In this document: positions 17,449-18,555 of the stretch, piece by piece
Position numbering within the stretch: position 1 is the stretch's first letter
How the letters are laid out: each line of letters begins with the position of its first letter
From: Lachnospiraceae bacterium
GTDB lineage: Bacteria; Bacillota; Clostridia; Lachnospirales; Lachnospiraceae
NCBI GenBank assembly: GCA_017437785.1
Contig: JAFRXH010000050.1
Span: 1-47,617 of the forward strand
Direction: 5' to 3'
DNA length: 47,617 nucleotides
The notes under the pieces: generated by a model
What the model was told of the DNA's origin: nothing
Database searches by the model: none
What the model saw: the letters and a program-made list of their open reading frames with translations, nothing else
Position numbers and translations under genes: made by a program

Positions 17449-17525
17449 CACAGTGGGTACAGGGGACGGTTCTCTGTACCCATCGCGCCCATAGAAAAAG
17501 GGGACAGAGAACCGTCCCCTGTGTT
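17449..17525. repeat. REP-like element of two inverted GGGGACGGTTCTCTGT units
   Basis: AGGGGACGGTTCTCTGT (17461-17477) and its perfect reverse complement (17504-17520) are 17-bp inverted arms 26 bases apart. Each arm can also fold alone: GGGTACAG...CTGTACCC on the left and GGGGAC...GTCCCC on the right. Units of this kind are known near REP-associated tyrosine transposases (IS200-like, Y1_Tnp) in Clostridia; no such transposase is in this window. It lies between convergent genes and may also end transcription from both sides. Confidence 0.75.
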
Positions 17526-17557
17526 CATCCTCAGGCATAAGCCCTAAGGGATTCAGA

Positions 17558-18275: not shown

Positions 18276-18304
18276 TTGAAAAATATAGCTTTCTGACATA
18301 TAAT
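18276..18304 (+). promoter_or_regulatory. Strong promoter for the structured RNA / cysE transcript
   Basis: TTGAAA (18276-18281), exactly 17 bp, TATAAT (18299-18304). Start predicted near 18311, within four bases of the first helix of the structured element. Confidence 0.75.
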
Positions 18305-18310
18305 CTTATA

Positions 18311-18490
18311 GTCCTTCGATTCTTCGCAAGAGGCTGCGCAAGCGGCTTGTCTGTGTCCGGTTCCAAACATAGAGATGCGCTGTAATCTCAAGGAGGGGCC
18401 CGCGCGGAGCGTGGGAAGATGCCTTGAGATATTCGTAAGGGGGGACCCACGAATGTGGGGGGATTCCTTGCGATGTACAGGAATCGAAAA
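18311..18490 (+). ncRNA. Candidate multibranched structured RNA (novel ncRNA or leader)
   Basis: The transcript from the promoter at 18276 folds by eye into a closed multibranch structure. P1a pairs 18315-18322 with 18481-18488 (TTCGATTC/GAATCGAA); P1b pairs 18325-18330 with 18467-18472 (CGCAAG/CTTGCG). Inside: P2 18331-18337 with 18342-18348, capped by a GCAA tetraloop; P3 18350-18355 with 18368-18373; P4 18386-18393 with 18422-18429 (TCTCAAGG/CCTTGAGA), containing P4a 18399-18405 with 18409-18415; P5 18431-18436 with 18449-18454. A competing 7-bp hairpin (18462-18468 with 18479-18485) excludes P1, a switch-like layout. No U-run follows. It fits no riboswitch or housekeeping RNA I know. It lies 55-65 bases upstream of the serine acetyltransferase RBS and start, so it may be a leader of that gene or a processed separate RNA. 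Confidence 0.6.
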
Positions 18491-18555
18491 ATCAGAGGGA
18501 CGCAATAAAACAAAGCATATCGTTGTTATACATATATATACCCGGAGGAACACTA

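Follow-up and report, generated by a model that had tools for sequence, protein, structure and literature searches.

The structured stretch that precedes a cysE-like gene in the window (the whole analysed DNA, a 47,617-nucleotide contig of a Lachnospiraceae bacterium) appears, from comparison with related genomes, to be a chimera made up of a damaged copy of a small RNA and an inserted short hairpin repeat (Table 1). The locus is probably a repeat-interrupted copy of a small autonomous RNA gene, likely acting in trans, that has presumably become the leader of cysE. Intact copies of the RNA are carried by divergent genomes, and their alignment gives strong evidence of a new covarying structured RNA family. 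The downstream product is presumably a serine acetyltransferase, the name (cysE) under which an earlier, sequence-only reading had assigned it; the gene adjoins the RNA in the window but does not help to define the RNA family.

Table 1. Features of the interrupted RNA locus and the gene that follows it (window positions).
Feature	Positions	Strand	Details
Sigma-70-type promoter TTGAAA-17-TATAAT	18276–18304	+	TTGAAA 18276–18281; 17-nt spacer; TATAAT 18299–18304, ending 7 nt before the first P1 base
Intact 5' half of the new RNA	18311–18383	+	73/73 identical to the uninterrupted G001 copy; includes GCGCTGT
P1, 5' strand	18311–18319	+	
P2 hairpin	18320–18332	+	
P3 hairpin	about 18332–18347	+	GCAA loop
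P4, 5' strand	18348–18356	+	with conserved GTGTCCGGTTCCAAACAT
Inserted dispersed two-hairpin repeat	18384–18481	+	3' limit uncertain by about 15 nt
Repeat hairpin A	18385–18430	+	
Repeat hairpin B	18433–18473	+	followed by GATGTACAGG
Repeat tail and/or decayed 3' remnant of the RNA	18481–18501	+	GAATCGAAAAATCAGAGGGAC vs GAACACGAGACAGTCGGGGGAC in G001 (alignment)
Remaining leader up to cysE	18502–18555	+	Shine-Dalgarno-like GGAGGA at 18544–18549
Serine O-acetyltransferase-like protein (hexapeptide repeats), 319 aa	18556–19515	+	Pfam Hexapep, 36.9 bits

The sequence-only reading had taken the region as a single multibranched RNA under a near-consensus promoter, and the elements it listed are all in place. 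The promoter matches the consensus at 11/12 positions, though sites as good arise at a mean of 1.0 in shuffles of the region, which makes it weak evidence alone; the closing stem 18315–18322/18481–18488 (TTCGATTC/GAATCGAA) is exact, and the hairpin with the GCAA loop, the two long hairpins (arms 18385–18393/18422–18430 and 18433–18440/18466–18473) and the alternative 7-bp hairpin (18462–18468/18479–18485) can all be read in the sequence. The predicted fold of 18311–18495 has an energy of −76.7 kcal/mol (z = −4.0) that none of 200 shuffles equals, and that of 18311–18555 has a z of −2.8, equalled by 2/200. The fold at this locus beats chance yet is not one evolved domain. Two hairpins that belong to a dispersed repeat account for much of the predicted pairing, and the closing stem is the 5' strand of the RNA paired with the repeat tail or with a decayed 3' remnant. 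The multibranched form is a product of the repeat inserted in arm P4, and is not the fold of the family.

This division emerges from a DNA search of 40 relatives with 18311–18555 as query, which split the locus into two parts with differing distributions and so ruled out a single evolved multibranched leader. Query positions 1–73 have one site in G001, at 100% identity, and weaker single sites in G007, G010 and G006. Parts of positions ~73–200 match elsewhere, by hand count at 13 places in G006, 10 in G021, 6 in G007, 5 in G018, 3 in G000 outside the window and 1 in G001. The intact G001 site has the same downstream gene; there the first 73 bases run straight into GAACACGAGACAGTCGGGGGACATTTT and the middle part is absent, while G046 and G050 carry the same repeat insertion as the window. 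The repeat is a ~95–110-bp dispersed element, here interrupting the 3' half of the RNA; among the matches listed 31 are distinct, and in the 15 of these that were analysed 10/29 pairs show double changes. Several copies are found no more than a few hundred bases from the start of a contig (C53, C34, C128 and C32 of G021, C171 of G006), a position expected if the repeat breaks assemblies, and its copy numbers are therefore lower bounds.

REP/BIME-type palindromic repeats likewise consist of short paired hairpins with several copies per genome, and the copies of the present repeat that were read are, like them, intergenic. The two differ in that the Y1-type transposase (PF01797) was not found in the repeat-rich genomes G006, G007 and G021, and a RAYT as mover of the repeat is thus unsupported; the domain is present in 7/12 genomes tested and was also not found in G015 and G045. 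The repeat had no match in plasmids, and one exact 43-base repeat pattern gave none in viral contigs. An extra single hairpin of ~48 nt (TTAGTCTCAAGG...CCTTGAGACATAA) is nested in repeat hairpin A on contig C73 of G000 (locus L012, around 1501) and is absent from what is apparently the same place, judged by similar flanks, on contig C162 of G001 (L002, 650–752); the gene that follows is presumably that of elongation factor P, going by its translated start. This filled and empty pair suggests that single hairpin units can move.

Uninterrupted, the RNA is a compact four-way junction of ~95 nt formed by P1, P2, P3 and P4/P5. P1 has nine pairs. P2 is a short hairpin, usually with a GNRA-like loop, which reads UUCYGGGARGAG in 58/95 distinct copies and, within the window's genus, mostly UUCUUCGCARGAG; P3 is variable in length, with a base pair that is G-U in 90/94. 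P4 comprises nine pairs with an invariant inner GUGU/ACAC; P5 (three pairs) extends it and leads into a large apical loop, and P4/P5 contains an internal loop that is conserved. In 33 copies found with the first model (R1) double changes occur at 19/27 pairs and 96.3% of cells are paired. A larger, 100-row alignment holds 95 distinct copies, in which 23/31 pairs change on both sides, 94.9% of cells are paired (at most 49.7% when partners are slid) and the covariation score is 0.484 against 0.173 in shuffles; none of 500 shuffles is as high on all five measures, in alignments that were fitted to the model structure, which favours such a result. Of its rows 65/100 come from a pattern scan that fixed parts of P4, including the four inner pairs, and these, being invariant, carry no covariation. 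The weakest pair is the innermost of P2, unpaired in 80/93 cells, which fits the genus type only. Folded as single sequences, six copies are predicted to form broadly the same junction, at z values between −0.7 and −4.1, a range that makes thermodynamics alone insufficient to prove it. Covariation, which the earlier reading had named as its own check, is therefore strongly positive, but for a family fold that differs from the fold of the chimera.

Pseudoknots were sought by mutual information in the 95 distinct rows and none was accepted, as the top signals outside helices look like lineage effects of two sequence types. For P2 loops that read GGGA, a pairing with UCUC in the apical loop was considered, but it misfits the copies that have GAAA loops. 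A contact of the CGC in the P2 loop with GCG of P4 is possible in the genus type, where the pair is invariant.

Model R1 was built from six uninterrupted copies (G001, G006, G007, G010, G018 and G043) gathered by DNA and pattern searches. It matches 14/35 genomes of the genus, three of them with interrupted copies, and finds one match per genome except in G000, which has a second, weak one (E = 0.05, 21 bits). In a sample of the family with one genome for nearly every genus R1 matched 23/299 genomes and the improved model R3 46/299, each once, the weakest being a partial match of 32.7 bits in G185. The 253/299 genomes with no R3 match are weak absences, because outside the genus only the 13–14 first-look candidates of each genome were scored and because the family count went up from 23 to 46/299 with the better model. 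Samples of the order (4/295, R2), class (1/291, R3) and phylum (1/299, R2) yielded matches solely inside the window's own family.

Scanning named genomes with a pattern gave at least 120 stretches, of which 80 loci were analysed. By hand count 47 of their titles read Lachnospiraceae; the others include [Clostridium] citroniae (which we take to be an Enterocloster), Enterocloster, Eisenbergiella, Hungatella, Blautia, Lachnoclostridium, Acetatifactor and Marvinbryantia, three Clostridiaceae, one Oscillospiraceae and several that are merely Clostridiales, Clostridium or bacterium. Cultured carriers among these titles are [Clostridium] citroniae (WAL-17108, locus L107), Eisenbergiella tayi (DSM 26961, locus L123) and E. 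porci. R2 matched all 80 loci, one match being clipped at the locus end, and one contig of a viral collection. The copy on that contig (IMGVR_UViG_3300006217_000306; L209, 7303–7399), a pattern match confirmed by R2, may lie in host DNA flanking a prophage. The RNA region of E. citroniae had no match in phage records.

The window copy does not retain the core of this family (the GTGT/ACAC arm of P4, P1 and the T-run) intact. The conserved GAACAC and the T-run of the family consensus are absent, and the 3' half is displaced or decayed. It matches R1 at 52 bits (model positions 11–86), R2 at 37.8 bits and R3 at 22.1 bits, where the alignment has mismatched pairs in P1 and P4, and it was not found in the R3 searches of the family and class. 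The promoter of the window therefore probably reads into cysE through a leader of ~245 nt from which the core and terminator of the RNA have been lost.

Plain decay would nevertheless have left the interrupted tract less well preserved than it is, barring its transfer or homogenisation, and the remodelled RNA may therefore still be under selection. Between 18311 and 18545 the window differs from G050 at 0/235 positions and from G046 at 2/235, against 3–7% and 10–16%, respectively, in the flanks (upstream gene, 12/374 and 58/373; start of cysE, 18/261 and 33/261). Recent transfer or selection would each account for such identity. It is possible, if improbable, that the chimera common to the window, G046 and G050 functions as a remodelled RNA or a regulatory leader of cysE held by purifying selection, in which the repeat hairpins and the new closing stem have a role, a reading that is compatible with that of the family and differs over the window copy. 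The identity of the tract and the exact 8 bp of the new closing stem in the window point this way. However, recombination of the tract explains its identity equally well, as the upstream gene of G046 is nearer to that of G001 (16/373 differences) than to that of the window; the start of cysE gives a small contrast in the same comparison (25/261 for G046 and G001). Moreover, 18494–18545, a part of the leader with no predicted family structure, is identical in all three genomes and thus as well kept as the RNA, and both changes in G046 hit the closing stem, leaving one mismatch by eye.

Across its copies the RNA has the signals of a gene of its own. After removal of 9 duplicates from 116 rows there are 107 copies, of which 104 have 60 bases of upstream sequence. 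A promoter, taken as at least 5/6 matches at −10 and 3/6 at −35, precedes 93/104 copies compared with 16.25 in simple shuffles, and the best −10 element begins at −12 to −10 of the model match in 80/104; by eye the upstream profile of the 104 copies shows no conservation beyond it. At the end of P1 the T content climbs to 0.63–0.81 over four positions, and a T-run of four or more occurs within 14 nt of this point in 61/105 copies (15.9 in shuffles); the 44/105 copies that lack one count against the reading as an autonomous gene. Both a promoter and a 3' end, as expected of a stand-alone non-coding RNA, can thus be read from sequence signals.

The neighbours, by contrast with the RNA, are not conserved. 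In 43 of the 107 copies the ORF that follows (chosen by a longest-ORF heuristic with a minimum of 70 aa) shares the strand of the RNA; in 55 it is on the other strand, and 9 are undetermined. The nearest neighbours form 156 clusters, the largest of five, and no gene family occurs around more than 6/107 copies in loci of about 2–8 kb. The adjacency to cysE, found in at least 9/14 genus copies, appears to be synteny inside the genus. Promoter, T-run and unconserved neighbours on either strand indicate that the RNA looks like a stand-alone, probably trans-acting non-coding RNA, not a riboswitch of cysE. The earlier suggestion of a stand-alone RNA with readthrough accordingly comes close to the ancestral state, but its alternative, a riboswitch-like cysE leader, is unsupported, given the varying strand of the following ORF and the lack of any gene family around more than 6/107 copies. 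For the family a riboswitch is largely contradicted, and that the locus is a metabolite-sensing riboswitch or attenuator of cysE is very unlikely. The position of cysE after the RNA in the genus, the upstream promoter and the T-run after P1 would suit such a role, but outside the genus neighbours vary on either strand, the RNA occupies no constant place upstream of same-strand genes as a T-box or SAM-type leader would, and in the window the core is interrupted.

Nor did any known class account for the RNA, in agreement with the earlier claim that no known riboswitch fits. At gathering scores Rfam 15 finds only two tRNAs in the whole window, with no match to a T-box or SAM-type riboswitch covariance model; between 18200 and 18600 at E ≤ 10 there is one snoRNA match, of 18.3 bits against a gathering score of 70, and matches at lax thresholds, some overlapping the RNA, are far below gathering scores. 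Autonomous small structured RNAs are a known kind, and the family matches none in Rfam 15. 6S RNA (RF00013) is likewise usually present in one copy with its own promoter and a closing terminal stem, but is a rod of ~180 nt with an open bubble, in contrast to the four-way junction of ~95 nt described here.

We searched 28 genomes with RF00013, and 22 match at E ≤ 0.001, 19 of them over the cut-off; at the RNA loci there was no match. All 20 genomes outside the genus match (19 above the cut-off), among them all 11 carriers of the new RNA (10 above the gathering score), so that the new RNA and 6S coexist there. Inside the genus none of the five carriers G000, G001, G010, G046 and G050 matches, and of the three non-carriers in the set (G040, G002 and G049) two have weak matches below the cut-off, making six of eight genomes with no match. 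6S may be much diverged in the window's genus; the missing matches do not make the new RNA a 6S RNA. A divergent version of, or stand-in for, a housekeeping RNA (6S, SRP RNA or tmRNA) missed by the Rfam models has little probability. Its mostly single copy per genome, stand-alone setting and promoter-like site, together with the RF00013 results in the genus, would favour such an identity, but size and junction differ, no Rfam family matches at gathering score, and the carriers tested outside the genus have a 6S match as well. That the dispersed repeat is the functional thing at the locus and the rest chance, as its multiple copies and covarying arms might suggest, is refuted by intact RNA copies lacking the repeat in many genera and can be set aside.

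The RNA also resembles orphan structured RNA candidates, e.g. those of a 50-genome survey (PMC11109978), which as far as that text was covered are recognised by covariation and have an open function, and from which the new RNA is set apart here as matching no Rfam family at gathering score. The main texts of PMC11109978 and PMC8632094 gave no Lachnospiraceae hit for the terms tried, and no description of the RNA was found among the listed titles and abstract starts of the open literature.

The structure and ends of the RNA come from sequence comparison, and we infer its transcription and termination. The intact RNA would start at the sigma-70-type promoter, its first bases forming part of helix P1, and this closing stem, often directly followed by a T-run, probably doubles as terminator. 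Most likely the RNA acts in trans, binding a protein, a ligand or a target RNA through the conserved P4 core. In the window's lineage the two-hairpin repeat would have landed in the 3' side of P4, deleting or disrupting the GAACAC strand and the T-run and thereby converting the gene to a promoter with a ~245-nt hairpin-rich untranslated leader of cysE. A bolder combination, in which some Lachnospiraceae carry an undescribed autonomous RNA whose functional class is itself new (a general riboregulator or the RNA component of an RNP) and the repeat-made cysE leader is selectively maintained, is put forward tentatively, as the less probable case.

A conserved RNA that occurs once in each matching genome of the family survey, is carried by cultured bacteria and belongs to no database family is a direct target for the bench. 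The interrupted allele is an example of an RNA gene rewritten by a mobile hairpin repeat, and a caution that a fold which looks impressive locally may be chimeric. Elsewhere in the window, at 17450–17530, two facing copies of a palindrome (GGGGACGGTTCTCTGT / ACAGAGAACCGTCCCC) follow a 665-aa gene with a Cthe_2159 domain and look like another inverted repeat.
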